Shown one piece after another: positions 27,111-43,688 of a stretch of DNA of 51,800 nucleotides. The translations under genes were made by a program, and so were the position numbers. The notes beneath the pieces were generated by a model, which was given only the letters and a program-made list of their open reading frames with translations, ran no database searches and was not told where the DNA came from. Within the stretch, counting starts at the first letter, position 1, and the number at the start of each line of letters is the position of its first letter. The DNA comes from Dehalococcoidia bacterium (GTDB lineage Bacteria; Chloroflexota; Dehalococcoidia; SHYB01; SHYL01): assembly GCA_009692825.1 (NCBI GenBank), contig SHYL01000004.1, positions 1-51,800 of the forward strand. The letters are read 5' to 3'.

Positions 27111-27226
27111 CAGGGCCTCCGGAGGCAACTTACAAAAATTGTAACACGCAAAGCTGGTGCGAACGCAGGCAAACGCTATCATTTATGCAATGATTGAATT
27201 AAGGTTCCGTACAGGCGAGGCGCTAA

Positions 27227-29233
27227 ATGCCTGAAGTTGGCTACGCTTGTCTTGTTATTGCGCTCATTTCCTCCGTCTTCGGTGTATTTGCCTCTCTCAT
27301 AGGCATGCGCATTCGAGACAATTTCCTCATCGCCGCCAGCAGAAGTATCGCGCTGCTGACATTCGCCGCGATGTCTACCTCGATGGTCATGCTCTGGCTG
27401 CTTCTACTCACGCATAATTTCCAGGCCAAATACGTCCACGATTTCACCAGCAGCGTAATGCCCGCCCACTATACGTTCGCCGCGTTCTGGGCTGGAAACG
27501 CAGGGTCGCTGATGTTCATGACGTGGGTGCTGTCAGCGTTTGCGGCAGCAGTTACGTTTTTCAATCGGAAGACTAAGCGGGAGTCCATGCCGTACACAAC
27601 GGCCGTGATGCTTACCGTAACGGCTATGCTCACGTCCATGCTGGTACTCAAGGCTCACCTGTTCCTGCAGTTTCCGTTCAAGCCTAACGAAGGACTTGGG
27701 CTCAACCCGATCCTTGAAAACCCATTCATGGTGATACACCCGCCGCTGTTGCTATCAAGCTTTATGGCGTTTTCTGTGCCCTTCGCGCTGACTATAGGAG
27801 CGCTGGCGGCAGGCACGCTAGATAAGGACTGGCTGGCCAGCGTTAGGCGGTGGGGATTGCTGGCATGGCTTATATCAGGCGTCGGCAATATCCTGGGCAT
27901 GGTGTGGGCGTACAACGAGCTAGACCTTGCGTGGGGCGGCTACTGGGGATGGGACCCCGTGGAGAACGCGGCGATAATCCCGTGGTTCCTGGGTACTGCA
28001 TATATACATATGCTGGTGCTGGTGAAGCAGCGGAAGGATATGTTCAAGGCGTGGAGTGTTTTTCTAATCCTACTTACATTTAATCTGGCGTTTTACGGCA
28101 CGTTCCTCGGCAGGACGGGCTTCCTCCAGTCTGTTCATACATTCGGCGCGTCAGGGCTCGGCCCTTATCTGCTTTCGTTCGAGGTCGGGATGGCGGTGCT
28201 TTCGCTGGGACTTTTGTATTTGAAGCGGAGCCTGTTCATGCCTGCAGGGCATACCCTTTCATGGTTTTCCAAGGAAGGCGCGTTTGCGCTGAACAACTTC
28301 CTGCTGGTGGCGGTCGCAGCAATAATCTTCTGGGGAACCCTCTTTCCCGTTGTATATGAGCTGTTTACCGGCAAAACCATCGTTGTAGATGCGAGCTTTT
28401 ACAACAAGACGCTGGCAGTGCCGCTTCTTTTGCTTCTCCTGCTCATGGGTGTAGGCCCGTTCATGATGTGGAGATTCACAACCATTCAAAAGGCTAAGAG
28501 CCAGTTCACGTTCCCTCTGATGGCCGGGGCGCTGGTAATTATCGGTCTGCTTGGTGCTGGCATAAGGGAGTTGATAGCAATCGTAGGATTTGCGGCGTGT
28601 ACGGTGGTGATGGCATCGGTGGTGCAGGAGTGGCTGACACTGACGTTATGGCGCATGAAAAAGAGGAAAGAATCTGTATTTACGGCGTTCAAAACGCTCA
28701 TGTTTGCAAACAGGTCTAAGTATGGCGGATACGTTGTGCATATAGGCGTAACCGTGCTTAGCAGCGGGATACTCGCGTCGTCATTTTTCAGCGTGACTAG
28801 CACCGCAGACTTGGTACCCGGCGAACGGATGCCAATAAATGACCACTACGAGGCGCTGTACAAGTTCCCGGTGCAGGACTTCGGGAAGGATCGAGATATT
28901 TACTCCGCCGAGGTGCAGATCATAGAAACAAGCTCAGGAAAAGTAGTCGCTACGGCGCACCCCAAGGCGATAAATAAGCTGAATTTTGGGCTGATAGTCA
29001 TCGAGCCTGACATCAAGATGGGATTTCTAAAGGACGTCAAAGTTGTTATGAAACAGCTCTTTGAAAGCGATGTAGTTGAGCTTGAGGTCCAGATAAAACC
29101 GATGGTTATGTGGATATGGATAGGCGGCGGAATCATATTCCTGGGCGGCATATTCGCTTTCTGGCCTGACAATAAGAACCGCAAGGACCCTGACGAAGAG
29201 CAGGAAATAGACAGCAAGCTGGCTGAAGTATGA
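27227..29233 (+). CDS. ccmF: Cytochrome c haem lyase subunit CcmF
   Basis: 668 residues with about 14 membrane helices. The haem-handling WWD segment WGGYWGWDPVEN starts at Trp236; family segments HFLxxPPLLLxSF (here MVIHPPLLLSSF), LGRTGFLQSVHTF and the large C-terminal periplasmic domain are present. Within system I it ligates haem from holo-CcmE to apocytochrome c on the outer side of the membrane. First gene of the ccm cluster, which continues to ccmE and then into the cytochrome bc genes. Stop overlaps the next start by 4 bases. Confidence 0.96.
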   Translation: MPEVGYACLVIALISSVFGVFASLIGMRIRDNFLIAASRSIALLTFAAMSTSMVMLWLLLLTHNFQAKYVHDFTSSVMPAHYTFAAFWAGNAGSLMFMTWVLSAFAAAVTFFNRKTKRESMPYTTAVMLTVTAMLTSMLVLKAHLFLQFPFKPNEGLGLNPILENPFMVIHPPLLLSSFMAFSVPFALTIGALAAGTLDKDWLASVRRWGLLAWLISGVGNILGMVWAYNELDLAWGGYWGWDPVENAAIIPWFLGTAYIHMLVLVKQRKDMFKAWSVFLILLTFNLAFYGTFLGRTGFLQSVHTFGASGLGPYLLSFEVGMAVLSLGLLYLKRSLFMPAGHTLSWFSKEGAFALNNFLLVAVAAIIFWGTLFPVVYELFTGKTIVVDASFYNKTLAVPLLLLLLLMGVGPFMMWRFTTIQKAKSQFTFPLMAGALVIIGLLGAGIRELIAIVGFAACTVVMASVVQEWLTLTLWRMKKRKESVFTAFKTLMFANRSKYGGYVVHIGVTVLSSGILASSFFSVTSTADLVPGERMPINDHYEALYKFPVQDFGKDRDIYSAEVQIIETSSGKVVATAHPKAINKLNFGLIVIEPDIKMGFLKDVKVVMKQLFESDVVELEVQIKPMVMWIWIGGGIIFLGGIFAFWPDNKNRKDPDEEQEIDSKLAEV

Positions 29234-30234
29234 AACGACTAATACTCGCTGCACTCCTTTTAAGCTTGGTGCTTTCACTTTCCATGCATCTCGTAGACGG
29301 ATTCGCGCAGGCTTCAAAAGGCACGATATCAATCATGGCCATAAACGGTACGTCCGGTGGTGACCAGCCTTCCGGCGCAACCGTATTGCTGCAGTCGGCG
29401 CGGGACGATAAGCTTGTAGAAGCGGGCAAAGCCACGCTCGACTCGTCAGGTATAGCCAATTTCAATGATTTTGATGTTTCACGCCTGTATGTCGCCACGA
29501 TAACTTACAAAAACGTGCCGTTTTTCAGCGATGTGATTCAATTCACAGCAGGGCAAAGCAGCGTTATGAGCCATGTTAGCGTCTATGAGTCCACGGGCGA
29601 TCCTGCTGTTATTAGCGATGCCAGAATCGCGATGTACATAAGCGAGAGAGACGGCATAGTTCAAGTGACCGAAGCGCACAGCGTGACGAATTCGAGCACG
29701 CTTGTATATGTGGGTTCTGCGCCGGGCGTAGCCGGCCGGTTCCAGACGGTGCGCATCGGACTGCCAACCGGCGCGTCGGTACCAACGTATGCCGCGGGAT
29801 TTTCGGAGACGACTGTACAGAGAGGTGGCAACGTGCTTACTGACACCCGCCCGATTTTGCCCGGCCGAAAAGAGTATGCGTTCAGCTACGACCTGGTATA
29901 TCTTTCAAACGACCTTGAAATGAGCAGGCGGTTTTTTGTGCCTACGTCCAGGTTTGAAGTTTTTCTGCCGAGCGGCGTATTAAACATGCAAGGCCCACAG
30001 CTTACAAAAGAGGACCAGATAGAGATAAGCGGCCGCAAGCTGGATAGGTATTCTGTTTCCTCTATTGGTACAGGGAGCAGCATCACGATGACGCTTGGCA
30101 ACCTGCCGTATCACGACTCGCTAACTCCCCTGCGCAACTGGATACTGATTCTCGGCGGATTAAGCGGAGTTGGCTTGATAGGGTGGAGAGTGTTTCGCAG
30201 GAAACGTACATTAGCTTTACAGGCAAATCAATAG
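29230..30234 (+). CDS. Unknown secreted, membrane-anchored protein in the ccm cluster
   Basis: 334 residues. N-terminal signal peptide (LILAALLLSLVLSLSMHLVDGFAQA), an extracellular part rich in beta strands, and one C-terminal membrane helix (NWILILGGLSGVGLIGW) followed by RRKR, so it is anchored with its bulk outside. The start of the mature part (GTISIMAINGTSGGDQPSGATVLLQ) resembles a carboxypeptidase-regulatory/Ig-like beta domain. There are no cysteines, which rules out a CcmG/CcmH thiol-redox role. Its start overlaps the ccmF stop (ATGA), so it is translated with ccmF. Perhaps an apocytochrome-holding or accessory subunit; this is inference. Confidence 0.85.
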   Translation: MKRLILAALLLSLVLSLSMHLVDGFAQASKGTISIMAINGTSGGDQPSGATVLLQSARDDKLVEAGKATLDSSGIANFNDFDVSRLYVATITYKNVPFFSDVIQFTAGQSSVMSHVSVYESTGDPAVISDARIAMYISERDGIVQVTEAHSVTNSSTLVYVGSAPGVAGRFQTVRIGLPTGASVPTYAAGFSETTVQRGGNVLTDTRPILPGRKEYAFSYDLVYLSNDLEMSRRFFVPTSRFEVFLPSGVLNMQGPQLTKEDQIEISGRKLDRYSVSSIGTGSSITMTLGNLPYHDSLTPLRNWILILGGLSGVGLIGWRVFRRKRTLALQANQ

Positions 30235-30272
30235 AAAAGGGGTTAAGTTTAATTTGTTAGAGGGCTACAGTT

Positions 30273-30590
30273 GTGCTTCTGATCATATCTAACGTATTTA
30301 TGACTTTTGCATGGTACGGGCATTTGAAATTTAAATTTTCCCCGCTATGGATAGTTATTTTCGCTAGCTGGGGCATAGCGTTTGTCGAATACTGTTTCCA
30401 GGTGCCGGCAAACAGGATATGGCACGAAAGGTTCTCGGCGGCGCAGCTAAAGATTATCCAGGAATTAATCACGCTAAGCGTCTTTTCAGTCTTTTCCGTC
30501 GTTTACCTGAAAGAGGCGCTGAGGTGGAACTATGTCGCAGCGTTTGGATTGATCTTACTTGCTGTGGTAGTCGCATTCAAAAAATGGTGA
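30273..30590 (+). CDS. DUF486/DMT-like small membrane protein
   Basis: 105 residues, four membrane helices, GTG start with GAGG 9 bases upstream. The segments LIISNVFMTFAWYGHLKF, WGIAFVEYCFQVPANRIWH and FSAAQLKIIQELITLSVFSV are the hallmark of DUF486, a small EamA-like family of unknown function. It sits between the ccmF pair and ccmA and its stop is 3 bases before the ccmA start, so it is in the operon. DUF486 is not a known part of cytochrome c maturation, which makes the position odd. Confidence 0.9.
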   Translation: MLLIISNVFMTFAWYGHLKFKFSPLWIVIFASWGIAFVEYCFQVPANRIWHERFSAAQLKIIQELITLSVFSVFSVVYLKEALRWNYVAAFGLILLAVVVAFKKW

Positions 30591-30593
30591 TAA

Positions 30594-31304
30594 GTGGTCG
30601 AAGTTAGGAACATATACAAATCGTATGGGTTGACTAGGGCGCTAAGGGGCGTCAGCTTCACCGTTCCACACGGCAACTTTATGGTGCTCGTCGGACCTAA
30701 CGGGTCCGGCAAAACTACGCTGCTTAAGGTGCTTTCGGGACTTACAAGGTCTGAGCATGGTTCGGTTGCGATCGATGGGCGTGATATACGCAACGATTCG
30801 TCTCAAGTCAGGCGGCGTACAGGCGTTGTACTGCACCAGAATATGCTGTACGGCGAGCTTACGGCGCGCGGTAACCTGAACTTCTATGCGCAGATGTACG
30901 GCCTGCGCAACCCGGACGAACGCATCCTCCAGGTCGTGGCGCAGATGGGCATGACTGCGCATATCGACCAGCGTGTGAGCAGCATGTCACACGGCATGGC
31001 AAAGCGAATCTCTATCGCGAGGGCGCTGCTTCACAATCCGGACGTATTGCTGCTCGATGAGCCGGAGACGGGACTCGATGAAGAAGGCATTGAGATTTTG
31101 AAAAACATCGTTATAGGCAAAAACGAAGCTGGTATCAGGAAGACGGTGTTGATGTCTACCCACAACATATCGCAATGGCTGGAGATAAGTGATCGTGTGC
31201 TTGTCATGGCTGCGGGACGTGTGGTGCATGACGGACCGTCCAGCATGTTAAGCGCGGCATCCCTACGGAAGGTTTACCAGGAGCTTGTCGAGGTGGAGCG
31301 CTGA
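30594..31304 (+). CDS. ccmA: Haem exporter ATP-binding protein CcmA
   Basis: 236 residues, GTG start. Walker A GPNGSGKTT (34-42), signature region MSHGMAKRISIARALL (the LSGGQ is replaced by MSHGM, as often in CcmA-like proteins), Walker B VLLLDEPETGLD, and the H-loop STHN. Works with CcmB and CcmC to release holo-CcmE. Its stop overlaps the ccmB start. Probably translated by coupling with the preceding gene, since the ribosome site is weak. Confidence 0.93.
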   Translation: MVEVRNIYKSYGLTRALRGVSFTVPHGNFMVLVGPNGSGKTTLLKVLSGLTRSEHGSVAIDGRDIRNDSSQVRRRTGVVLHQNMLYGELTARGNLNFYAQMYGLRNPDERILQVVAQMGMTAHIDQRVSSMSHGMAKRISIARALLHNPDVLLLDEPETGLDEEGIEILKNIVIGKNEAGIRKTVLMSTHNISQWLEISDRVLVMAAGRVVHDGPSSMLSAASLRKVYQELVEVER

Positions 31305-31975
31305 TGGAATTCGCGCGCCAGGTTTGGACGATCGTGTGGAAGGACATAATAGTAGAGGCGCGCTCGCGTCAGATCGTGGCGCCTGTGCTGGTATTCGCGG
31401 TCCTTGTGCTGGTCATATTTAACTTTGCGCTCAGCCCAACGTCCTCAAACATACCGCAACTCGCGCCCGGCGTCCTGTGGGTATCGTTTACATTTGCTGG
31501 CGTACTGAGCGTCAACAGGTCATTCGTGCTTGAAAACGAGAACGGCTCTATTCTCGGCCTAATGCTCTCGCCGGTGAGCCGTGAAGCGTTATTTACGGGT
31601 AAGATGCTCAGCAACCTTATTTTCATAGGTGCTGTTGAGCTTGTTACAGTGCCTGTTTTCTCAGTATTGTTCAACCAGGAGTTATTCCCGCCCATGCTTC
31701 TGGTGGTGCTGTTTCTGGCCACCTCGGGTTTCTCTGCGGTAGGCAGTATTTTCGCGGCGCTGGCTATAAACACACGTTTCAGAGAAATCATGCTTCCGCT
31801 GCTTATGTTCCCGGTAGTTGTGCCTGTTATAATTTCTGCAGTGAAGGCTACCGAAATCATTCTTACTTCATCTCCTGCAGGCGACATGATTAAATGGCTA
31901 GAGATGCTAGTGGCGTTCGACCTGATCTTCTTTCTTATTGCGGCTGTCGCGTTTGAATATGTAATAGAGGAATAA
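31304..31975 (+). CDS. ccmB: Haem exporter membrane protein CcmB
   Basis: 223 residues with six membrane helices; begins with the cytoplasmic VWTIVWKDIIVEARSRQIV typical of CcmB (family KDLxxExRxR) and has LAPGVLWVSFTFAGVLSVNRSF and the EREN-like LENENGSILGLMLSP motif. Permease partner of CcmA. Start overlaps the ccmA stop by one base. Confidence 0.94.
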   Translation: MEFARQVWTIVWKDIIVEARSRQIVAPVLVFAVLVLVIFNFALSPTSSNIPQLAPGVLWVSFTFAGVLSVNRSFVLENENGSILGLMLSPVSREALFTGKMLSNLIFIGAVELVTVPVFSVLFNQELFPPMLLVVLFLATSGFSAVGSIFAALAINTRFREIMLPLLMFPVVVPVIISAVKATEIILTSSPAGDMIKWLEMLVAFDLIFFLIAAVAFEYVIEE

Positions 31976-31977
31976 TT

Positions 31978-32721
31978 TTGACTACGAAACACCTCGAAAA
32001 AATCAATAGCCTTCTCCTGCCGGTCTGTTTTGCAGGCGTGCTTCTCGTGATGTACATGGCGCTGGGGTGGGCCCCGCTGGAGACAACAGAAGGCCATGTA
32101 CAGCGTATTTTCTACGTACACGTGCCGGTTAGCTGGTCAGCGTTTGTAGCGTTTTTCGTGGTGTTTGTCTCTAGTATTTTGTTTCTTATAAAGCGCAGTG
32201 AAAAATGGGACTGGCTCGCCGTATCCGCGGCAGAGCTTGGTTTACTGATGACCACACTCAGCCTGATAAGCGGCATCATCTGGGGAAGGCCTACATGGGG
32301 CGTCTGGTGGGTATGGGACCCACGGCTTACGTCTACGTTGCTGATGTGGATGATATACGTGGCCTACCTGATGGTGCGCGCCTACTCGTCGGAAGCCGGA
32401 CGAGGGTCACGGATGGCGGCCGTGATCGGAATCATTGGCTTCGCTGATGTGCCGGTGGTCTATTACTCAGTGGTCTGGTGGCAGAACATACACCCGCAGC
32501 CGCTCATAAGGCCCGGCAACCTTGAGCTTACTGGAAGCATGGCTCTGGTTCTGCTCACATCCACGATAGTTTTCACAATATTTCTTTTTTATCTTATTTC
32601 ACGAAGGTTCTTGCTGGAGAAAGCAACATCCGAGCTGGCGGTTATGAAGCGCACCCTTCGGGAAGAAGAACAGGATGCCAGGATCGCGAAAATAAAAATA
32701 GATAGGGCGGAAAATAAATGA
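31978..32721 (+). CDS. ccmC: Haem-handling protein CcmC
   Basis: 247 residues, six membrane helices, TTG start 2 bases after ccmB. WWD motif in the outer loop reads WGRPTWGVWWVWDPRLTS; the flanking haem-ligand histidines are in FYVHVPVSW and WWQNIHPQPL. Presents haem to CcmE. The C-terminal cytoplasmic tail is charged and longer than in E. coli. Stop overlaps the ccmD start. Confidence 0.95.
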   Translation: MTTKHLEKINSLLLPVCFAGVLLVMYMALGWAPLETTEGHVQRIFYVHVPVSWSAFVAFFVVFVSSILFLIKRSEKWDWLAVSAAELGLLMTTLSLISGIIWGRPTWGVWWVWDPRLTSTLLMWMIYVAYLMVRAYSSEAGRGSRMAAVIGIIGFADVPVVYYSVVWWQNIHPQPLIRPGNLELTGSMALVLLTSTIVFTIFLFYLISRRFLLEKATSELAVMKRTLREEEQDARIAKIKIDRAENK

Positions 32722-32966
32722 GACGCTTCGTTTTAGCGGCAGCATTTGCATCGATTCTGGTCATGCTGCCCGGCTACGCTTTTGCCAGCGCTTCCTTGCA
32801 GGTGGAGCAGCACCCGACAAACTTGCGCTACATATTTGCCGCGTTCATGGCGATATGGGCAGGCTATTTTCTATACGCATTGTTTATGGGGTGGCGCGAA
32901 CTCAAGCTCAGGCGCTATGTTGAAGAGCTGCAAACATTATTGAAAGACCGCGCTAAGAAATCCTGA
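32718..32966 (+). CDS. ccmD: CcmD-like small membrane protein
   Basis: 82 residues. An N-terminal hydrophobic stretch (LAAAFASILVMLPGYAFA) that may be a signal peptide, then one helix YIFAAFMAIWAGYFLYALFMGW and a charged tail LKLRRYVEELQTLLKD. This order (one membrane helix followed by Arg/Leu-rich cytoplasmic tail) and the position right after ccmC fit CcmD, which helps release holo-CcmE; sequence conservation in CcmD is low. Confidence 0.75.
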   Translation: MRRFVLAAAFASILVMLPGYAFASASLQVEQHPTNLRYIFAAFMAIWAGYFLYALFMGWRELKLRRYVEELQTLLKDRAKKS

Positions 32967-33059
32967 TTAAAATAGAGTTAAGCATGCCTTCAAAGAAGAT
33001 AAAGGCCAGCGCAAAGGTGGGGAATGGATAGAAGAAGCTTGCTCTCCCGCCCGGCACCA

Positions 33060-33569
33060 TTAGGAATAAGGATGGCAGGGACACCCGGAGCGATAAGAGG
33101 CTGGGGACGCTGCTTTGTTGTAATCCAGCCTTGTGATATCGCCGGACGCCTTACCTATGTATAGCTTGCCGTCGGGTCCGAAAGTCATAACTGCTAGGCC
33201 GTCGAACCTCTCGGGCAGCGCCTCAGCTGTAAATCCTCTCTGGAGTGTCAGGCCTGAGCTCGCATCTTTCACCAGGTCTGCAGGCTTAAGCGGCCCGGGT
33301 GCGGAATTGGCGACGGGCGGTGGAGATGGGGTTGCTGTAGGAGGCAATGGCGTTGACGTTGGCGTTGAAACTGAGGTTGGTATCGTGGTTGCAGGTGTGA
33401 CGGTAGGGGTAACGCCGGATACTGCGGTCGCTGACGGCGAAAGCGGGGTGCTGGTTGAAGGCACGTCCTCAGAACTGCAGGCAGCCGACAGGAACAAACA
33501 GGCGAACGAAATAATGTAAGTAAGTCTCAAATAATTCCTCACTGACTTCCATAGTATCAAGTTATCCAA
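33060..33569 (-). pseudogene. Truncated PQQ-dependent sugar dehydrogenase-type lipoprotein
   Basis: Minus strand, inside the ccm/bc cluster. Residues after a TTG or GTG start (33569 or 33542) form a lipoprotein signal with LSAAC and a Ser/Thr/Pro linker, then GFTAEALPERFDGLAVMTFG and PDGKLYIGKASGDITRLD, which is the opening blade of the glucose/sorbosone dehydrogenase beta-propeller. The remaining 300-400 residues of the propeller are missing; after ITRLDYNKA the reading loses similarity and stops. Most likely a 5' remnant left by deletion. Interrupts the ccmD-ccmE order. Confidence 0.72.
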
Positions 33570-33726
33570 TCGATTTAATTAAGGGAAATGAAGTAAACTC
33601 TCGATTGCAAAATTATGGGGGTATGTATATGATTTATGTGGATTTTTGGAAAGTGAAAAAAGACACATACCAGCTAAACTAAAGCTAAGCATATGCGCCG
33701 TTTTTCAGCAAATATTCGAGCGCTAA

Positions 33727-34155
33727 TTGCAAAAACAGGCAGAGAGTATTAAGAAGAGATTCGCTTGGACATCCCGGACCAGGAAGCTAGTCATAGTAGG
33801 GACAGTTATAGCCCTTGCGATAGGCTTCCTCACGTTCCAAACTTTTCAGAGCGCATCGGAGTTTGTAGTAAGCGTAAGCGATCTGAAAACAGCTTATGCA
33901 AGCGGGAATAACAAAGAGACGCGTGTTATAGGAAAAGTGATGGTCTCCAGCATAAATAGGAATACGGTTAACAAAACTATGGCCTTCTCGATAACGGACG
34001 GCGTAGTTACAATTCCTGTCATATATAGAGGCGGAGTAACCACCCAGTTCTATCAAGCCGATGCCGATGTCGTTATCGAGGGAAAGTTTGATAGCTCCAA
34101 CACTTTCGTTGCCAGCAACGTTATAAGCAGACACGCTTCGACATTTAAAGAGTAG
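33727..34155 (+). CDS. ccmE: Cytochrome c maturation chaperone CcmE
   Basis: 142 residues, TTG start. A cytoplasmic N-terminus, one membrane helix (KLVIVGTVIALAIGFLTFQT), then the OB-fold domain (VIGKVMVSSINRNTVNKTMAFSITD, IPVIYRGGVTTQFYQADADVVIEGKF). The haem-binding histidine is His136 in VISRHASTF, near the C-terminus as in other CcmE. The conserved HxxxY motif here reads HASTF, so the Tyr haem ligand is replaced by Phe. The usual C-terminal extension is absent; the protein ends two residues later. 17 bases before the flavoprotein gene, so co-transcribed with the bc operon. Confidence 0.9.
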   Translation: MQKQAESIKKRFAWTSRTRKLVIVGTVIALAIGFLTFQTFQSASEFVVSVSDLKTAYASGNNKETRVIGKVMVSSINRNTVNKTMAFSITDGVVTIPVIYRGGVTTQFYQADADVVIEGKFDSSNTFVASNVISRHASTFKE

Positions 34156-34172
34156 TCTTGATCAGGAGCAAT

Positions 34173-36269
34173 ATGACGGTCAACAATGAACAGAAATACA
34201 AGATAAGCGTAGTTGACGTCGATTATTACAAGGCTCAGATAGAGTGCCAGGCGGCCTGCCCAGTCCACACCGACGCACGCGGATATGTTCTTTCAGTTGC
34301 GAGCGGCGATTATCAGAAGGGCTACGTTCAGGCCAGACAGCCGAACCCATTTGCTTCCACATGCGGACAGGTCTGCAACGCGCCTTGCGAAAAGGCATGC
34401 AGGCGCGGCGAATTCGGCAACCCCGTAGCGATCAGAGCGCTGAAGCGCTTCCTCACCGAGCAGTACGGAGTCGAGGCGCAGGCAGGTATCGACGGACGTT
34501 CCGTTGGTCTTAAGCTGATGGACATGGTCGCACCGGAGAACTCACACACCTGGGAGAGCTTCGCAACGTTCAAGCAGGCAGGCGAAGACGTCAAGCGCAA
34601 GCAGGCCAAAATTGCTGTTATAGGCGCAGGGCCCGCAGGATTTACAGCTTGCCATGACCTCTCGATCCTCGGCTACAAGGTAACACTCCTCGAAGCGACG
34701 TCATTTCTGGGTGGAATGCACGTGCTGGGCGTGCCTGAATACCGTCTGGATAGACGCATGGTCGCGAGAGAAGTGGAAGACATCCTCTCGCTCGGCAATA
34801 TCGAAGTTAAGACAAATATGACGCTGGGCAAAGATTTCACAATCAAGGACTTGAAGGCGCAGGGATTCGAAGCGATCATCATCGCAATCGGCCTTTGGCG
34901 CAGCCGCGGCATACCGATACCGGGCGCGGAGACTCCAGGCGTTTTGAAGGCTCTTGAAGAATTCATACCTCAGACGAATACGCAGGTCCCGGTAATAGTG
35001 GGCAAGAAGATAGCGGTCATCGGCGGGGGCAATACGGCAATGGACGTCATCCGCACCGCGCTGCGGTTAGGCCCCGATGGAGTAATGGCTAAAGGCCCGG
35101 ATATCGATCAGGCGAGACGCGTGCGAGAGCTCCGCGAAAAGCCTCCTCTTCTGCGCGGTTATGCCGAGCAGAAAGACAAATTGATGGGCATCACAGGCAA
35201 GGGTGTTCCCAGAGTGCCTGAAAGGGAAGTACATGACCTTGTAGTTGAGGCGTGGGACGAAATGCTTGCCGACGAAGTTGAAAAAGAGGATGCGCTGGAA
35301 GAGGGAGTGATCTTCCACAACCGCGTAGGCCCTAAGAGGATCATCGTAAGAGACGGTAAAGTCTCAGGCGTTGAAGTGGCACGCGTAGCGCGTGTATATG
35401 ATGACCAGAACAGATTTAACCCGCAGTTCGTGCCGAACTCTGAGCATGTTATCGAGTGCGACACCGTTATCCTGGCAATCGGTCAGATGGCCGACCTGGG
35501 ATGGATACAGAAAGAGGACGGCGTTGAAATCAGCCGCAGAGGCTCGATAGTTATTGATAACGCCACGTATGCAACGACTGCCCCCGGCATATACGCCATC
35601 GGCGATATAAGCATCGGTCCCCGCCTGATCATCGACGCGGTGGCGGATGGACACAAGGTCTCCAAAGCGGTCGACGAATATTTACAGCAGAAGCGCGCTG
35701 TTATCGTGAAGCGCGGCTTTATGGAAAAGATTCCATACAACAATCTTCCGCACTATGGAATGCTGAACGTTCAATACGAGCGCCCTCCAATAGTGCCACT
35801 GCACGCCCGCATAGGCGTTGCTGAAATCGAGAAGGCATACACGGAGCAGATGGCCCGCAAGCAGGCAGAACGCTGCTTCATGTGTCACGTCCAGACTGTG
35901 TTCAAGGGCAGCTTGTGTATAATGTGCAACGGCTGTGTGGACATCTGTCCCGAGAACTGCCTGAAAATGGTGAGTCTCGCAGATATAGAGGGCGATGATA
36001 AGCTCGATGAAGTTATCAAGAACGAGTACGGACACTCGCTCAGTGAGTTCAAGCAGCAAGGCATAGATATCGGGTTGATAGCCGGACAGGGCAGTGTGAT
36101 GTTGAAAGACGACACGGCCTGCACGCGATGCGCATTATGCGCCAAGCGATGCCCGACGGAAGCTATCACGATGGAAGCCTTCTGGTTTGAAGAGAGCTTA
36201 GAATTCGAAAATGCCAAAATCGATCACGCGAGCAAAACCAAAGAACTTAATGCTGGTGCTATAAGATGA
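34173..36269 (+). CDS. Iron-sulfur flavoprotein, GltD/NfnB-like pyridine-nucleotide oxidoreductase with ferredoxin tail
   Basis: 698 residues from ATG 34173 (AGGAG 8 bases upstream). N-terminal domain with cysteines 25, 29, 64, 68, 72 and 76 (CQAACPVH, CGQVCNAPCEKACRRG) as in the Fer4_20 domain of GltD and dihydropyrimidine dehydrogenase. Then an FAD site (IAVIGAGPAGFTA, about 146) and an NAD(P) site (IAVIGGGNTAMDV, about 275) and the second FAD contact YAIGDIS. The C-terminus adds ferredoxin-like cysteines: CFMCHVQTVF, CIMCNGCVDICPENC and CTRCALCAKRCP. No signal, so cytoplasmic. Its stop overlaps the cytochrome b start (ATGA), so it belongs to the bc operon and probably exchanges electrons between NAD(P)H or ferredoxin and the quinone pool. 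No glutamate synthase large subunit is near. Confidence 0.9.
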   Translation: MTVNNEQKYKISVVDVDYYKAQIECQAACPVHTDARGYVLSVASGDYQKGYVQARQPNPFASTCGQVCNAPCEKACRRGEFGNPVAIRALKRFLTEQYGVEAQAGIDGRSVGLKLMDMVAPENSHTWESFATFKQAGEDVKRKQAKIAVIGAGPAGFTACHDLSILGYKVTLLEATSFLGGMHVLGVPEYRLDRRMVAREVEDILSLGNIEVKTNMTLGKDFTIKDLKAQGFEAIIIAIGLWRSRGIPIPGAETPGVLKALEEFIPQTNTQVPVIVGKKIAVIGGGNTAMDVIRTALRLGPDGVMAKGPDIDQARRVRELREKPPLLRGYAEQKDKLMGITGKGVPRVPEREVHDLVVEAWDEMLADEVEKEDALEEGVIFHNRVGPKRIIVRDGKVSGVEVARVARVYDDQNRFNPQFVPNSEHVIECDTVILAIGQMADLGWIQKEDGVEISRRGSIVIDNATYATTAPGIYAIGDISIGPRLIIDAVADGHKVSKAVDEYLQQKRAVIVKRGFMEKIPYNNLPHYGMLNVQYERPPIVPLHARIGVAEIEKAYTEQMARKQAERCFMCHVQTVFKGSLCIMCNGCVDICPENCLKMVSLADIEGDDKLDEVIKNEYGHSLSEFKQQGIDIGLIAGQGSVMLKDDTACTRCALCAKRCPTEAITMEAFWFEESLEFENAKIDHASKTKELNAGAIR

Positions 36270-37066
36270 TTTTGAAGCCTCCGCCGATAGTGGAAAAGAT
36301 GTTAGGCATTGTGCGCAGCAGCACCGTTTGGCGCAGTTTCTGGAGACAGGGCTACCCGAGCAATGATGAAAACCGCGCTCTTATCATGTTCAATAGCTTG
36401 TTCCTCCATCTTCACCCCGTAAAAGTAAAAGGCCATACCCTCAAAATTACTTACACATGGGGTCTTGGATTCATAGCCTTCTGGTTATTCGTGATCCTCA
36501 CGATAACCGGTGTGGTTTTAATGTTTTTCTATGTTCCATCCACTACCCGTGCGTACCAGGATATACAGGCGCTGGAAACCACGATTCCGTTCGGAATCGT
36601 GCTCCGCAACATGCACAGGTGGGCCGCTCACTTGATGGTATTGATAGTGTTTTTACACATGTGCCGTGTTTTCTATACCGGCGGTTACAAGGCTCCGAGA
36701 GAGTGGAACTGGGTAGTCGGTGTTAACATGCTTGTGCTTACAAGCATGCTTAGCTTTACCGGTTACCTGCTGCCGTGGGATGATCTAGCGATATCAGCTA
36801 TCAAGATCGGCTCGCAGATCGCAGCCGTGACTCCGTTCATAGGCCAGTGGGTACGCGGTCTGATGATTGGGGCCACCCCCACAGAAGAAGTTGGACAGAA
36901 TGCGCTTCTCCGCTTCTACGTGCTTCACGTTATGATTCTGCCAATCGTTCTGTATCTGCTCATATTCTTCCACTTCTGGCGCATACGCAAAGACGGTGGA
37001 CTCTCACTGCCAGAAAAGACGGCTGAAGAGCCTGCGGACAACGGCAAGAAAGTCTTAGTTAATTAA
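36266..37066 (+). CDS. Cytochrome b6-type subunit of a bc complex
   Basis: 266 residues, four main membrane helices, with an extended N-terminus of about 60 residues. Haem b ligand pairs are His117/His131 (NMHRWAAH, FLHMCRVF) and His221/His236 (VLHVMILP, FFHFWRIR). The 15-residue step of the second pair is the b6 type, not the mitochondrial 14. VFYTGGYKAPREWNWVVGV and GYLLPWDDLAIS align with b6 GGFKxPRExxWxxGV and GYSLPWDQ; here Gln is Asp. Complete haem c-binding Cys near the N-terminus, as in b6f haem ci, is not seen. Start overlaps the flavoprotein stop. Confidence 0.94.
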   Translation: MILKPPPIVEKMLGIVRSSTVWRSFWRQGYPSNDENRALIMFNSLFLHLHPVKVKGHTLKITYTWGLGFIAFWLFVILTITGVVLMFFYVPSTTRAYQDIQALETTIPFGIVLRNMHRWAAHLMVLIVFLHMCRVFYTGGYKAPREWNWVVGVNMLVLTSMLSFTGYLLPWDDLAISAIKIGSQIAAVTPFIGQWVRGLMIGATPTEEVGQNALLRFYVLHVMILPIVLYLLIFFHFWRIRKDGGLSLPEKTAEEPADNGKKVLVN

Positions 37067-37086
37067 TTGTTTGAGAAGAAGATAAG

Positions 37087-37920
37087 ATGACAACCAGGGA
37101 CACAAGACAAGAGTTTTTCCCGAAGGACCCAAAGAAGACGTACGGTCTGATGGAACTGATGAAGGGCACTGCGCCTCTCGTGGGCAAAGGCGGACCTGAA
37201 GATACATTCTTCTCATGGCCGCACCTGCTCATCCTTGAGCTTCTGGCTATGCTGGGAACTACATTTGTACTGATCCTACTGTCTATCTACGTACGTGCTC
37301 CGCTTCGCGAGATAGCGGACCCTGATAAGGTCCAACTCGTTGAGAAGGCCCCGTGGTACTTCCTGAATATTCAGGAGTTGCTCAGGCATATGAACCCTGC
37401 ACTCGCCGGCGTGATAATCCCCAACATAGCGCTTGGTCTTGTCATGGCGATCCCATATATCGACCGCTCCAACAAAGACGTAGGCGTTTGGTTCGCTGGA
37501 ACCAAGGGCGCCAAGATTGCTCTTTTTGGCTTCCTGTACGCGTCAGTAATGATGGTTGCGCTCGTGGTATTCAATGAAAAATTCCACTGGCATGGCGGCA
37601 CCGGTGTAAACGCGTTGTTTATGCAGGCTGAGACGGTAAAAGGCATTACAACATACGTAACAAGGTTCCCATCAGCCATAGCCCAGGATATAGTTGTTGG
37701 ACAAGCGATCCCATGCGCTCTTATATTTTTCCTCAGCTTAATGCTTGGTGTAGGCACGTGGAAGATTGCAAAGGCGAATACGCGCGAAATCATAATCGCG
37801 CTCTTTAGTGCGTTTGTTGCTGCGTATTTTGTACTTATGATCATCGGAATTTTCTTCAGAGGCGAGTCCTTCTCATTTATAAGCCCGCTTAATCTGCCTC
37901 CAGGCGCGATATCGTTCTAG
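37087..37920 (+). CDS. Cytochrome bc complex subunit IV-like membrane protein (cytochrome b C-terminal part)
   Basis: 277 residues. N-terminal 55 soluble residues, then membrane helices. It aligns with subunit IV (PetD) through LSIYVRAPLREIADPDKVQ and KAPWYFLNIQELLRHMNPALAGVIIPNI; the PEWY quinol-site motif is APWY here, without the Glu. It carries extra helices at the C-terminus (about 195-277), making it larger than PetD, closer to the longer versions in Gram-positive and Chloroflexota bc complexes. Lies 20 bases after the b6 gene. Confidence 0.88.
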   Translation: MTTRDTRQEFFPKDPKKTYGLMELMKGTAPLVGKGGPEDTFFSWPHLLILELLAMLGTTFVLILLSIYVRAPLREIADPDKVQLVEKAPWYFLNIQELLRHMNPALAGVIIPNIALGLVMAIPYIDRSNKDVGVWFAGTKGAKIALFGFLYASVMMVALVVFNEKFHWHGGTGVNALFMQAETVKGITTYVTRFPSAIAQDIVVGQAIPCALIFFLSLMLGVGTWKIAKANTREIIIALFSAFVAAYFVLMIIGIFFRGESFSFISPLNLPPGAISF

Positions 37921-37940
37921 GTTACTGAGGAGAAATTGAA

Positions 37941-38486
37941 ATGGCGCATTTAAAAACCTCACAAAACGGCGGAGTGCGGGTCACTCGGCGAGAGTTTCTC
38001 AGCTGGACGTGGTGGGGCATTGTAGGACTTATCGCGCTCGAATCAACGGTTGGTCTGTTGTGGGCACTATGGGCGAAGAAACCCAAGGTTAAACCGGGGC
38101 AGTTTGGTTCTAACCTTTCGGCTGGCAATATCAATGAAATGCAAGTGGGCGATATAAAGCTTGTGGAAAAAGGGAAATTCTTTATATCTAAAGTAGAGGA
38201 GAACGGTGTCCTCGCTCTATACCGCAAATGTCCACACCTGGGCTGTCCGGTCCCCTGGGCACCAGACGAGCCGACGTGGGATAGCATCCAGGCGCAAGGG
38301 AAATTCCACTGCCGGTGCCACGGTTCTGAATATGACCGCTTCGGTGTTAAGCACGCAGGCCCCGCTCCGAGGCCGATGGACCTAATGGCTGGCGAGATTG
38401 ACGCGCAGGGCAACATCCTGATAGATACGGGCAACATTTCTACAAGGTCAGGCTATAACGAAAGCCAGCTTATAAGGAAAGCTTAA
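37941..38486 (+). CDS. Rieske [2Fe-2S] iron-sulfur protein
   Basis: 181 residues. N-terminus VTRREFLSWTWWGIVGLIAL is a twin-arginine-type signal/anchor. The cluster ligands are in KCPHLGCPVPW and HCRCHGSEYDRFG (Cys and His of both boxes), with the extra disulfide cysteines present; PAPRPMDLMAG follows as the usual Pro loop. Accepts an electron from quinol at the Qo site and passes it to cytochrome c. Its stop overlaps the cytochrome c start (TAATG). Confidence 0.95.
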   Translation: MAHLKTSQNGGVRVTRREFLSWTWWGIVGLIALESTVGLLWALWAKKPKVKPGQFGSNLSAGNINEMQVGDIKLVEKGKFFISKVEENGVLALYRKCPHLGCPVPWAPDEPTWDSIQAQGKFHCRCHGSEYDRFGVKHAGPAPRPMDLMAGEIDAQGNILIDTGNISTRSGYNESQLIRKA

Positions 38487-39064
38487 TGGACGAACTTTCT
38501 AAAAAATTTCTTATCGGCCTGGTTTTGACTATGGCTATTATCGTGATCCTTCCTATATATGCGATCCGTGAGACCAAGCGGCATACATCTGCGGCTGAGC
38601 GCTTCACCGAGGCTGCGGTCGAGCGCGGAGCGATTACGTTCGCCACCACGTGCTCGGGCTGTCATGGTATCCAGGGCGGCGGGAAGGTCGAAAGCCCTTC
38701 ATTCATAGGATTCCCGTTGAACCCGGAGTTCCGAGAAAAAGCAGGTCTCGTGATAAAGCTGCCCGGAGGCGACTCATATGTTATCGATGAAGACGTAGCA
38801 CGGAAGGTGATTCACCGCGGCCGCATCGGCGGCGACCCTACCAATTCACTTTCCCCGGAAGAGAAGAAACTCACACTACCAAACCTGAATATGCCTGCCT
38901 GGGGACTCGATGACGGCGGTCCAATCAAGGATTTTGCGATCGAAGACCTGATTGCTCTATTACAGCATTGGAATCAGGGTGCGATGGATGAAGCTCTTAG
39001 TCATCTGCCCGCCGCCCAGCTGGATGGTTTGAAAGCGCAGGCGGCTGCAGGGCAGAACCGCTAG
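38486..39064 (+). CDS. Membrane-anchored monohaem cytochrome c
   Basis: 192 residues. Uncleaved N-terminal helix (FLIGLVLTMAIIVILPIYAI) anchors it. One haem site CSGCH (Cys56, Cys59, His60); the sixth ligand is probably the Met in LPNLNMPAWG. A long insert between these contains EEKKLTLPNL. It is the likely electron acceptor of the Rieske protein and the last gene of the operon; it is also the only c-type cytochrome in the window that needs the ccm genes upstream. Confidence 0.92.
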   Translation: MDELSKKFLIGLVLTMAIIVILPIYAIRETKRHTSAAERFTEAAVERGAITFATTCSGCHGIQGGGKVESPSFIGFPLNPEFREKAGLVIKLPGGDSYVIDEDVARKVIHRGRIGGDPTNSLSPEEKKLTLPNLNMPAWGLDDGGPIKDFAIEDLIALLQHWNQGAMDEALSHLPAAQLDGLKAQAAAGQNR

Positions 39065-39102: not shown

Positions 39103-39708
39103 ATGGCATCGCCGACTCGCCTCCTCTTAGCTACAAATAACCTAGAGAAGGCACGCGAGCTATCCAAGCTGCTGAAAGACGTTCCATATCAAATCGTTAC
39201 ACCATCAGAACTCGGCCTGAAACTTGACGTTAGAGAGACAGGCGCTACGCTTGAGGCAAATGCTGAGCTTAAAGCGAAAGCCTTTGCGCAAGCCAGCGGC
39301 CTACTTTCAATAGCCGACGACTCCGGTCTCGAGGTCGATGCGCTTAATGGCGAGCCCGGTGTCAGGACTGCGCGATACGCCGGTGAGAATAAGACCGATG
39401 CCCAGCGCAACCAGCACCTGCTCGCGAAGCTGAAGGGCGTCCCTCTTAATAGACGCACCGCCAGGTTCAGGTCTGTGATAGCAATCGCTCCGCCAAAAGG
39501 GATCACTAGGTTCTGCGAAGGACGAGTTGAGGGATTGATCGTTATTGAGCCAAAGGGCGATAAGGGTTGGGGACACGACCCGATTTTCTACCTGCCCGGC
39601 ATCGGAAAAACGATGGGTGAGATTTCAAGCTCACTCAAAGGGAAATACAGCCATAGGGGTAGAGCGGCTAGGAAGGCTGCAACGCTTCTTAAGAAATTAG
39701 TTGATTAA
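39103..39708 (+). CDS. rdgB: Non-canonical purine NTP pyrophosphatase (RdgB/HAM1)
   Basis: 201 residues. Begins LLLATNNLEKARELSKLL (substrate-binding TNNxxK), followed by ETGATLEANAELKAKAF, IADDSGLEVDALNGEPGVRTARYAG with the catalytic Asp, and GWGHDPIFYLPG plus the final SHRGRAARK. Hydrolyses dITP/XTP to monophosphates, keeping the nucleotide pool clean. Starts 38 bases after the cytochrome c gene. Confidence 0.96.
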   Translation: MASPTRLLLATNNLEKARELSKLLKDVPYQIVTPSELGLKLDVRETGATLEANAELKAKAFAQASGLLSIADDSGLEVDALNGEPGVRTARYAGENKTDAQRNQHLLAKLKGVPLNRRTARFRSVIAIAPPKGITRFCEGRVEGLIVIEPKGDKGWGHDPIFYLPGIGKTMGEISSSLKGKYSHRGRAARKAATLLKKLVD

Positions 39709-39757
39709 AGCGGTCAACAATTGACACCTAGCTTCAATAGTCGCACAATTTAACGGT

Positions 39758-40786
39758 ATGCCCAATACAAAAGCCTCCATTAAAGACACGCGCAATCGCC
39801 CGATGCGTGACCTGCGCATTTCGGTGACTGACCGATGTAACTTCCGCTGCCCTTACTGCATGCCCGCGGAGATATACGGTGAGCGCTATCATTTCATGCC
39901 CAGAGAGCAAATGCTCTCGTTTGAAGAGATAAACAGACTGGCAAGGATTTTCGTGAAGCTTGGAGTGAATAAGCTTCGTCTCACAGGAGGGGAGCCTCTG
40001 ATACGCAACGACCTCCACAAGCTCGTCGGTCTGCTGTCCACCATTGTAGACGTTGATGACCTTACGCTTACCACCAACGGTTATTTACTTGCAGAGCAGG
40101 CGAAGTCATTGAAGGATGCCGGACTGCGGCGTATCACCGTAAGCCTAGATAGCCTTGATGACGAGGTGTTTGCGAAGATGAACGGACGCGGATACGGCAC
40201 CAAGAGAGTGCTGGAAGGGATCGCAGCCGCTGAAAGAGTCAGCCTTTCGCCTATAAAACTGAACACAGTCGTTCAGAAAGGCGTGAACGACCACACGGTC
40301 GTCGAACTTGCGAGGCATTTCAAAGGAACAGGCCATATATTGCGATTTATCGAGTACATGGACGTGGGTAATCTCAACGGCTGGAAGCTTGACCAGGTAG
40401 TGCCTTCGAAAGAGATCGTCCGAATGATAAGCGAGCAGATGCCGCTTGAGCCTGCCGAGGCTAACTACGTCGGGGAAGTGGCGGCGCGCTACCGATACCT
40501 GGACGGCACCGGGGAGATCGGTGTCATTTCCTCCGTTACACAGCCGTTTTGCGGCGACTGCACACGAGCACGTCTTTCTACGGACGGGAAGCTTTTCACG
40601 TGCCTGTTCGGCAGCCAGGGCACTGATCTGAAGACGCCGATGCGAAAAGGCGCTACTGACCATGAACTTGAGGTGCTGATTGCAAATGTATGGCTCGGCA
40701 GGACGGACCGTTATTCTGAGCTCAGAGCGCATCTTACTGCTAAACCAGGCTCTGAAAAAATCGAGATGTTTCAAATAGGCGGATAG
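39758..40786 (+). CDS. moaA: GTP 3',8-cyclase MoaA (molybdenum cofactor synthesis)
   Basis: 342 residues. N-terminal radical-SAM site CNFRCPYCMP (CxxxCxxC) preceded by DLRISVTDR; GGEPLIR SAM-binding motif; C-terminal second 4Fe-4S site CGDCTRARLSTDGKLFTCLFG; the terminal GG tail reads FQIGG. First step of molybdopterin synthesis. Serves cofactor-dependent enzymes such as the one encoded at 26499-27110. Other moa/moe genes are not in this window. Confidence 0.97.
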   Translation: MPNTKASIKDTRNRPMRDLRISVTDRCNFRCPYCMPAEIYGERYHFMPREQMLSFEEINRLARIFVKLGVNKLRLTGGEPLIRNDLHKLVGLLSTIVDVDDLTLTTNGYLLAEQAKSLKDAGLRRITVSLDSLDDEVFAKMNGRGYGTKRVLEGIAAAERVSLSPIKLNTVVQKGVNDHTVVELARHFKGTGHILRFIEYMDVGNLNGWKLDQVVPSKEIVRMISEQMPLEPAEANYVGEVAARYRYLDGTGEIGVISSVTQPFCGDCTRARLSTDGKLFTCLFGSQGTDLKTPMRKGATDHELEVLIANVWLGRTDRYSELRAHLTAKPGSEKIEMFQIGG

Positions 40787-40844
40787 CTCTCGCCTTCTGA
40801 TAGAATTCCCATGTTTCTTCGTTAATTTGCTAGAGGAGTGAAGT

Positions 40845-41375
40845 ATGCCTACGACCAAAGAGCTGGACCTAAAAAAATACATACGGGATATACCGGACTT
40901 CCCACAAAAAGGCGTCCTTTTTAAGGATATCACCCCACTCCTGGGTGAGCCTAAAGCTCTGAAAGCCGCTATCGATAAGTTTGCCGCTCTCTATAAAGAC
41001 CAGAAAATAGAGACGGTCGTAGGGATAGAATCCAGAGGATTCATATTCGGTGCTCCGTTATCTTACAAATTAGGCGTGCCTTTTGTCCCTGTGCGTAAAA
41101 AAGGAAAGCTCCCTTCAAAGACAATTTCTGCTGAGTATTCACTTGAATACGGAACAAGCGTCGTTGAGATGCACGAAGACGCGATCAAGTCAGGCAAAAA
41201 CGTACTGATAATAGATGACCTCCTGGCTACGGGTGGGACTGCCGCTGCCGCAGCGAGCCTTGTAAAAAGCCTCGGATGCAAAGTTGTCGGACTGGGGTTC
41301 CTTATAGAGCTGAAAGCACTAAAAGGACGTGAAAGGCTCAAAGGCTACAAAGTAAATTCACTGATCCAGTACTAG
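40845..41375 (+). CDS. apt: Adenine phosphoribosyltransferase
   Basis: 176 residues. IRDIPDFPQKGVLFKDITPLL at the start, GIESRGFIFGAPLSYKLGVPFVP in the middle and the PRPP-binding loop VLIIDDLLATGGTAAAA. Converts adenine to AMP; adenine is a product of MtnP two genes downstream. AGAGGAG before the ATG. Two bases separate it from mtnA. Confidence 0.96.
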   Translation: MPTTKELDLKKYIRDIPDFPQKGVLFKDITPLLGEPKALKAAIDKFAALYKDQKIETVVGIESRGFIFGAPLSYKLGVPFVPVRKKGKLPSKTISAEYSLEYGTSVVEMHEDAIKSGKNVLIIDDLLATGGTAAAAASLVKSLGCKVVGLGFLIELKALKGRERLKGYKVNSLIQY

Positions 41376-41376
41376 C

Positions 41377-42408
41377 ATGAAGACGATAGAGTGGGTCAAC
41401 GGCAAGCTGCGTATCATCGATCAAACGCGTTTACCATACGAAACCGTATATATTGAACTTACCGACATCCCCGACGTAGTAGAGTCCATAAAATCTCTCA
41501 GGATACGTGGCGCGCCTGCGCTCGGTGTCATGGCTGCGTATGGGCTTTGCATCGGTGCAGCCAAAATTGATGCTTCTGATAAATCTTCATTCATTAAGCA
41601 GCTTGAAAAAACATCCGCAGAAATATTGGCCAGCCGTCCGACAGCTGTAAACATACGCTGGGCGCTTGACCACATGCGCACCATCGCCGCCAAGGCGAAA
41701 ACGCCGCGCGATGCAGTCGAATCGCTGCTTGAGGAAGCGAAGAGGATGCATTCGCAGGACGTGGCAATAAATAAGCGGATGGGCAAGTTTGGCGCTGACC
41801 TTATTCCGGACGGCGCTACTGTTCTTACGCACTGCAACACCGGATCGCTTGCCACCGCCGATTTTGGCACGGCGCTTGGAGTGATACGTTCAGCGGTGGC
41901 GCAGGGCAAAAAGATACAGGTTTATGCTACAGAAACACGGCCGCTGCTTCAGGGCGCGCGCCTGACCGCCTGGGAGCTCATGCAGGACGGTATACCGTCG
42001 ACATTGATCACAGACTCTATGGCGGGCCATTTCATGAGCAAAGGGGCCATTACTTGCGCAATCGTTGGCGCAGACAGGATAACCGCTAACGGCGACACTG
42101 CGAACAAGATCGGTACTTATTCCCTGGCCGTCCTGGCGCATGAGCACAACATACCGTTTTATATAGCGGCTCCGATAAGCACGATAGACCCGACACTGAA
42201 GACCGGCACCTCGATTCCCATAGAAGAGCGTAAGCCTGAAGAAGTGCTCGGTTTTGGCGGCGTGCAGACCGCACCCAAGGGCATGCGCGTAGCAAACCCA
42301 GCGTTTGACGTTACGCCGTCTAGGTACATCGCCGCGATCGTTACCGAGCGAGGCATACTACGCAAGCCTTACGCGCAATCGATCTCAAAAGCGCTAAAGC
42401 CCGCGTAA
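41377..42408 (+). CDS. mtnA: Methylthioribose-1-phosphate isomerase
   Basis: 343 residues of the eIF2B-like aldose isomerase family. RIRGAPALGVMAAYG and THCNTGSLATADFGTALGV (catalytic Cys) and VGADRITANGDTANKIGTY (catalytic Asp) identify MtnA rather than eIF2B. Converts methylthioribose-1-phosphate to the ribulose form in the methylthioadenosine salvage path. Follows apt by one base and precedes mtnP by 14, so all three form one unit. Later salvage enzymes (mtnB, mtnC, mtnD) are not here. Confidence 0.95.
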   Translation: MKTIEWVNGKLRIIDQTRLPYETVYIELTDIPDVVESIKSLRIRGAPALGVMAAYGLCIGAAKIDASDKSSFIKQLEKTSAEILASRPTAVNIRWALDHMRTIAAKAKTPRDAVESLLEEAKRMHSQDVAINKRMGKFGADLIPDGATVLTHCNTGSLATADFGTALGVIRSAVAQGKKIQVYATETRPLLQGARLTAWELMQDGIPSTLITDSMAGHFMSKGAITCAIVGADRITANGDTANKIGTYSLAVLAHEHNIPFYIAAPISTIDPTLKTGTSIPIEERKPEEVLGFGGVQTAPKGMRVANPAFDVTPSRYIAAIVTERGILRKPYAQSISKALKPA

Positions 42409-42422
42409 AGATAAGGAGAAAT

Positions 42423-43286: not shown

Positions 43287-43343
43287 AATCACTTCCTGAA
43301 TAGCTATAATAATCCTGCTAAATCAAAGATAAGGAGGGACGCC

Positions 43344-43688
43344 TTGGTTACCAGAAGAAGCCGTCCAAATGAACCATTCACACGCCTTTCCGCTGAGCAA
43401 GCTAAAAAGATGCTTGATTCCAAAAATGGGACCGTTATCGTTGACGTACGCGAGCCTGATGAAACAAAGACAGGCCACGTTCCAGGTGCAGTGCTTATGC
43501 CCGTAAATAGTGTATTTTCACGCACAGCCGAGCTGCCCAAAGATAAAGACATCATTTTTGTATGCGCAGTCGGTCAGCGAAGCGCTCTCGCTGCCGAGAT
43601 TGCCGCAGCCATGGGGCTCACAAAGCTGTTCAACATTGAGGGTGGAACAGAGGCGTGGAAAGCAGCGGGTTATCCGCTCGAGAAGTAG
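43344..43688 (+). CDS. Rhodanese-like single-domain sulfurtransferase
   Basis: 114 residues, TTG start after AAGGAGGGACGCC. A complete rhodanese domain: VIVDVREPDETKTGHVPGAV with active-site Cys74 in VCAVGQRSAL, and AGYPL at the end. The loop CAVGQRS resembles cytoplasmic sulfurtransferases that carry persulfide. Located in the methylthioadenosine block; a role in moving sulfur is likely but the acceptor is unknown. Confidence 0.92.
   Translation: MVTRRSRPNEPFTRLSAEQAKKMLDSKNGTVIVDVREPDETKTGHVPGAVLMPVNSVFSRTAELPKDKDIIFVCAVGQRSALAAEIAAAMGLTKLFNIEGGTEAWKAAGYPLEK

Follow-up and report, generated by a model that had tools for sequence, protein, structure and literature searches.

A flavoprotein-linked Rieske/cytochrome b operon in a Dehalococcoidia bacterium, probably encoding a complex of the anammox type

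The window analysed here is a stretch of 51,800 nucleotides from a Dehalococcoidia bacterium of the phylum Chloroflexota (assembly GCA_009692825.1, contig SHYL01000004.1). It contains five closely spaced genes on a single strand, for an iron-sulfur flavoprotein, a b6-type cytochrome b, a subunit-IV-like protein, a Rieske protein and a monohaem cytochrome c (Table 1). On balance, the operon probably encodes a menaquinol:cytochrome c oxidoreductase of the Rieske/cytochrome b type described from anammox bacteria, with a cytoplasmic nicotinamide adenine dinucleotide (phosphate) (NAD(P)) oxidoreductase as one of its subunits. Two such complexes, Kuste4569-4574 and Kustd1480-1485, are described from Kuenenia stuttgartiensis; they comprise a b6-like cytochrome b, a five-helix subunit IV, a Rieske protein and an NAD(P) oxidoreductase of the GltD/Nfn fold, with crystal structures for the Rieske subunits and AlphaFold 3 models for the complexes (Hauser et al. 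2025, PMC12954380).

The flavoprotein-cytochrome b pair in Chloroflexota

The first-pass annotation of the window proposed to check whether flavoprotein and bc genes occur together across Chloroflexota, and they do. Adjacency of flavoprotein and cytochrome b genes was found in at least 36 Chloroflexota genomes beside the window, which rules out a chance neighbourhood; all recurrence counts given here cover genomes of this phylum. A single scan of the genome_contigs collection gave one locus, also from Chloroflexota and apparently on the same contig as in G286. Searching 393 genomes of the class with the flavoprotein gave 27 matches, window included. In 15 others cytochrome b lies directly downstream, that is, in every match that has this architecture and sufficient contig (15 of 15), so that the gene is found neither mostly beside gltB nor mostly away from bc genes; three matches run into the end of their contig, and the remaining eight, which are larger or differ in other ways from this GltD-type architecture, have no cytochrome b neighbour. 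The pair was also seen at nine fetched loci from other classes (L081-L089), and a search starting from cytochrome b yielded 12 further genomes. The close clade keeps the full order of flavoprotein, cytochrome b, subunit IV, Rieske protein and cytochrome c, and the order of the first two is strict even between clades whose flavoproteins share only about 30% identity.

Co-occurrence was measured in a sample of 251 genomes of the phylum, with thresholds of E<=1e-40 for the flavoprotein and E<=2e-70 for a strong cytochrome b. Both were present in 45 genomes, whereas 6 had only the flavoprotein and 51 only the cytochrome b (Fisher p 1.5e-16, without correction for phylogeny). Three of the six solitary flavoproteins are large multidomain proteins, and two are linked to bc genes with a divergent cytochrome b. 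As a separate observation, the bc operon of one relative (L065:632-5190, genome G516) is directly followed by the gene for the alpha subunit of a NarG-type nitrate reductase (TIGR01580, 1521 bits) and by another whose product has two CxxCH motifs.

The flavoprotein

Open reading frames and Pfam matches bear out the first description of the locus as five frames, the first two overlapping by ATGA, with Fer4_20, flavin adenine dinucleotide (FAD), NAD(P) and ferredoxin-like parts in the flavoprotein; the Rieske and cytochrome c frames overlap as well, by TAATG. The Fer4_20 N-terminus holds cysteines C25, C29, C64, C68, C72 and C76. It is followed by the FAD site and the NAD(P) domain, and then by a C-terminal 2x[4Fe-4S] ferredoxin tail (C582, C585, C588 and C592; C650, C653, C656 and C660; plus C568/C571), which is kept among relatives.

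An AlphaFold2 model of the protein (predicted local distance difference test (pLDDT) 85.2, predicted template modelling score 0.86) has the fold of Nfn, StnABC and GltD, its best match among PDB structures being NfnABC entry 9bov (8.8e-41). The GltD-type models TIGR01316, TIGR01317 and TIGR01318 match weakly, all far under their cut-offs (217.8 versus 471.75; 180.6 versus 447.7). Within the NAD(P) domain, the glycine motif GGGNTA is retained, the YRR motif typical of NADP binding is replaced by VVEAWDEM, and an insert of about 45 residues is modelled at low confidence. These features suggest that the protein may use NADH instead of NADPH. In relatives of family f41 (L081-L083) the glycine motif itself is degenerate.

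Membrane and periplasmic subunits

The cytochrome b, for which b6 is the best PDB match, has the four haem-ligand histidines H117, H131, H221 and H236. The cysteine that binds haem cN in b6 is absent, G66 aligning with b6 C35. It is likewise absent from the close clade and from L081-L083 and present in the distant L076-L078 and L084-L089, an apparent loss or gain inside one operon family.

About 60 residues form an N-terminal stretch of the cytochrome b, with the conserved motif VWRS.FR.GYP....N....FLHLHPV and with H48/H50 conserved in most relatives. It had been put forward as a docking site for the flavoprotein. We reject this proposal: the extension occurs equally in operons that lack the flavoprotein, seven genomes carrying it with no flavoprotein at E<=1e-40, and it is a trait of the family. 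For Kuenenia, an extra haem b is proposed between the cytochrome b monomers, its ligand being a conserved histidine that precedes helix A (PMC12954380). With regard to such a haem, H48/H50 would be candidate ligands, but the H-to-R spacing differs (about 190 versus 204).

The next protein is indeed subunit-IV-like, with a Cytochrom_B_C match, but has five hydrophobic segments and not the three of b6f subunit IV. APWY replaces the quinol-site motif PEWY, and none of the aligned relatives has the PEWY glutamate, their motif being APWY or close to it; the literature search on the PEWY/PDWY motif yielded no usable account. The cytochrome b and subunit IV genes, split in the window, form one open frame of a fused, bc1-like kind in some relatives (L060:10063-11619, L071:6277-7938 and L081:8657-10255).

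The Rieske protein has the cluster-binding boxes CPHLGC and CHGSEY, the second of which holds both potential-raising residues, Ser and Tyr, and it is accordingly predicted to be of high potential. Its two best PDB matches are 9rk4 (6.2e-13) and then 9rk3 (5.1e-11), with the entry names 'similar to the Rieske protein II of bc1 complex' and 'similar to Rieske 2Fe-2S', the PDB holding the Rieske domains only; we take them to be the Kuste4569/Kustd1480 structures of PMC12954380. The cytochrome c has a single CxxCH motif in the window and between one and four in relatives.

Relatives without the NAD(P) domain

Five genomes of the class (L071-L075, families f15, f87 and f98) encode a flavoprotein from which exactly the NAD(P) domain is missing. 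These proteins form one clade (Shimodaira-Hasegawa-like approximate likelihood ratio test 93); in the alignment the first FAD half joins directly to the second (GVFALGD), and the FAD motifs and ferredoxin tail are intact. For the L072 protein the model reaches only moderate confidence (pLDDT 72.1), and its best fold matches are again NfnABC and StnABC.

A gene resembling the formate dehydrogenase alpha subunit lies directly upstream in L071, L072, L073 and L075, the four loci at which that gene was covered by a scan or an alignment; in L074 the upstream frame is cut by the contig start. Where complete, the protein bears a NuoG-like iron-sulfur N-terminus. TIGR01591 scores are 732 bits in L075 (cut-off 666) and 664 bits in L072, and the L071 protein is a C-terminal fragment. 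In L075 the formate-dehydrogenase-like and flavoprotein genes overlap. The active-site Cys aligns in L075 (RQCH) and is Ser in L072 and L073 (RLSH), so that formate oxidation is not assured.

Because the NAD(P) domain is absent from this clade and its glycine motif is degenerate in f41, the conserved function seems to be that of an FAD/iron-sulfur wire to cytochrome b, with an exchangeable cytoplasmic end. We tentatively suggest that complex III may here be a platform for exchangeable cytoplasmic modules, in which the wire has an NAD(P)H domain of its own or, in the proteins that cleanly lack this domain, is joined by a formate-dehydrogenase-like molybdenum subunit. If this is true, the shorter form would be a formate-linked cytochrome bc complex, of which our literature search found no description.

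Genome setting

The assembly is about 76% complete. The cytochrome b of the operon is the sole one in the genome as assembled, no NrfD was found in it, and it encodes an aa3 oxidase and a complex I operon, with nuoE, nuoF and a nuoG-like gene located elsewhere. The operon is therefore most likely the organism's complex III and not a stand-in for complex I; alternative complex III is rejected with the lack of NrfD. MqnC scores over its cut-off, which points to menaquinone synthesis.

Function and direction of electron flow

Coupling of flavoprotein and cytochrome b, physical or functional, is supported by the conserved operon, the overlapping frames and the co-occurrence in the phylum, and we consider it likely. 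The coincidence of a missing NAD(P) domain with a formate-dehydrogenase-like neighbour also counts for coupling. In the mechanism that we favour, the flavoprotein would bind the membrane part, and about four [4Fe-4S] clusters together with FAD would wire the NAD(P) site to the cytochrome b haem on the negative side, along a path bP - bN - iron-sulfur clusters - FAD - NAD. Menaquinol would be bifurcated, one electron passing via a predicted high-potential Rieske protein and cytochrome c to the aa3 oxidase and O2, and the second reducing NAD+, as proposed for Kuenenia. Given coupling, this reverse, NADH-forming direction is close to an even prospect; we lean towards it because a high-potential Rieske signature is combined with menaquinone, haem cN is lacking and complex I is present. 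An NAD(P)H link to the quinone/bc complex thus stands as the best reading of the operon; the further idea that it serves instead of complex I is rejected, since the genome has complex I genes including nuoEFG.

Several observations weigh against this scheme. With YRR lost in the window and the NAD(P) site degenerate in f41, a pyridine-nucleotide function does not hold throughout the family. The variant with a formate-dehydrogenase-like neighbour is no less compatible with electron input than with output, and perhaps more so. Detached flavoproteins, forming one clade in the tree and placed among unrelated genes, exist alongside cytochrome b operons that follow unrelated genes; in seven cases the genome had no flavoprotein at the threshold given above. 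Coupling is thus not obligatory.

Two questions bear on the alternatives: (i) in which direction the electrons flow; and (ii) whether the flavoprotein is part of a complex at all. As to the first, the same complex could run forward, oxidising NADH (formate in relatives), with electrons entering haem bN and reducing menaquinone at the negative side and the quinol being re-oxidised via the Rieske protein to cytochrome c, in effect an alternative NADH dehydrogenase fused to complex III. Once coupling is granted, this direction, with NADH as the donor or, in the sister clade, formate, is almost as probable as the reverse; as a full account of the operon we think it possible, if rather unlikely. 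The energetics would be downhill, a formate-dehydrogenase-like gene that overlaps or adjoins the shortened flavoprotein is most simply an electron input, and the narG gene beside the operon in L065 would be an electron sink. However, a complex I with nuoEFG is already encoded in this genome, forward flow needs neither the predicted high-potential Rieske protein nor the missing haem cN, and Hauser et al. reject the NADH-oxidising direction for Kuenenia as an energy loss (PMC12954380).

As to the second, a soluble NAD(P)H:ferredoxin-type oxidoreductase might be merely co-expressed with an ordinary complex III and form no stable complex with it. The Nfn, StnABC and GltD fold, the detached homologues among unrelated genes and the cytochrome b operons that lack a flavoprotein neighbour are all compatible with this, but we find it improbable: the gene order is strict despite the low identity between clades, the genomes with detached homologues nearly all hold the same cytochrome b, and the same order, 4570-4571-4572, is found in Kuenenia, where all subunits of Kuste4569-4574 are reported to co-migrate (PMC12954380). 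That an ordinary GltD or NfnB stands beside the bc operon by chance, as the weak GltD-type matches might suggest, is very hard to credit with scores so far under the cut-offs, a conserved 2x[4Fe-4S] tail and a linkage that is to cytochrome b; a GltD/gltB identity is rejected on these scores and on gene context.

Neighbouring genes

The flavoprotein ATG at 34173 stands 17 base pairs after the ccmE stop, with AGGAG five bases before it; an alternative in-frame TTG at 34158 lacks that AGGAG spacing. The ccm genes upstream have the orientation of the operon, and ccmE precedes the homologous operon in relatives L063, L072 and L073 too. The ccm genes are adjoined by a molybdopterin protein of the sulfite oxidase family (Oxidored_molyb, 26499-27182, minus strand). 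Between ccmF and ccmA lies a secreted or membrane protein of 334 amino acids (29230-30234) that no Pfam or NCBIfam model matches, and a frame on the opposite strand lies in the gap between ccmD and ccmE (33060-33569, minus strand).

Table 1. Features of the operon and its upstream genes, with examples of relatives lacking the NAD(P) domain. Positions are those of the window unless a locus is named.
Feature	Position	Strand	Basis or remark
GltD/Nfn-type iron-sulfur flavoprotein, 698 amino acids	34173..36269	+	Open reading frame; Pfam Pyr_redox_2, Fer4_20, Fer4_7/Fer4
b6-type cytochrome b, 266 amino acids	36266..37066	+	Pfam Cytochrome_B
Subunit-IV-like membrane protein, 277 amino acids	37087..37920	+	Pfam Cytochrom_B_C
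Membrane-anchored Rieske protein, twin-arginine translocation (Tat) type (RREFL), 181 amino acids	37941..38486	+	Pfam Rieske
Membrane-anchored monohaem cytochrome c, 192 amino acids, CSGCH	38486..39064	+	Pfam Cytochrome_CBB3/Cytochrom_C
ccm genes	27227..34155	+	ccmF 27227, ccmA 30594, ccmB 31304, ccmC 31978
ccmD-like gene; ccmE	32718; 33727-34155	+	Part of the upstream ccm run
Loci without the NAD(P) domain, examples	L075:1180-5227; L072:3867-8195

Downstream of the operon (39103-43688) are genes that resemble, by eye from their translations, Ham1/RdgB, MoaA, Apt, MtnA and methylthioadenosine phosphorylase genes, and a rhodanese. The set fits methionine salvage when taken together with a RuBisCO-family protein encoded at another locus of the genome (L140). 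Autotrophy was not used as a cause of reverse electron flow: the RuBisCO-family protein may be RuBisCO-like, and the window has these methionine-salvage-type genes.

Comparison with known systems

The best sequence and fold matches of the flavoprotein are the bifurcating transhydrogenases NfnABC and StnABC (9bov, 9n5u and 8oh5), which differ in that they are soluble, pair with other subunits and contain no cytochrome b. In 9bov the C-terminal part is large and molybdopterin-oxidoreductase-like; the window protein has no such part, and no NfnB/C partner genes are adjacent at the window locus or at the relatives' loci. DsrL likewise joins a GltD-like core to a C-terminal ferredoxin domain, its partner being DsrAB; no dsr genes are among the annotated window neighbours. 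The ExtP/ExtQ cytochrome pair (NF040969/NF040970) is matched under both cut-offs (265.7 versus 290; 50 versus 150), the ExtP match beginning only at residue 41 of the cytochrome b.

We favour an assignment to the anammox type, which rests on the Rieske match, a shared structural homologue and the architecture. The first-pass annotation knew of no described complex with these five parts, which is correct only if precisely these five are meant, the cytochrome c being monohaem: the two Kuenenia complexes share the core parts and have a published mechanism, the proposal of Kartal et al., discussed in PMC12954380, that quinol bifurcation drives NAD(P)H formation. Common to the window and Kuenenia are (i) the b6-like cytochrome b, the separate five-helix subunit-IV-like protein and the GltD/Nfn-fold iron-sulfur oxidoreductase; (ii) the order of flavoprotein, cytochrome b and subunit IV, as in Kuste4570-4572; (iii) the Rieske protein, whose closest PDB relatives are Kuste4569/Kustd1480; and (iv) menaquinone with a high-potential Rieske protein, predicted in the window and measured in Kuenenia, where the pairing supports the published proposal (PMC12954380). 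The DALI match reported for Kuste4570 is NfnABC entry 9bp5 (Hauser et al., PMC12954380), the same protein as 9bov. In contrast, the window has a monohaem cytochrome c where Kuenenia has hexa- and octahaem proteins, lacks a hydroxylamine oxidoreductase (HAO)-like subunit and the haem-cN cysteine, and has the Rieske gene downstream and not upstream; its organism has an aerobic aa3 oxidase, and its cytochrome b is the sole one found.

As far as we found in the literature, anammox bacteria, which are hard to experiment on, are the only organisms for which direct electron exchange between complex III and NAD(P)H has been proposed, and our search found no usable description of Chloroflexota versions. 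The occurrence of such an operon as the only detected complex III in an aerobic-type Chloroflexota chain, and of the flavoprotein-cytochrome b pair in 36 or more related genomes, suggests that the idea reaches beyond an anammox oddity. Relatives that lack the NAD(P) domain beside a formate-dehydrogenase-like gene offer a natural comparison for the direction of electron flow. Judged by its sequence, the Chloroflexota form is a variant of the anammox complex, with a monohaem cytochrome c, no haem-cN cysteine, a lost YRR motif and a sole cytochrome b, and its monohaem cytochrome c and lack of haem cN make it a simpler version for testing.

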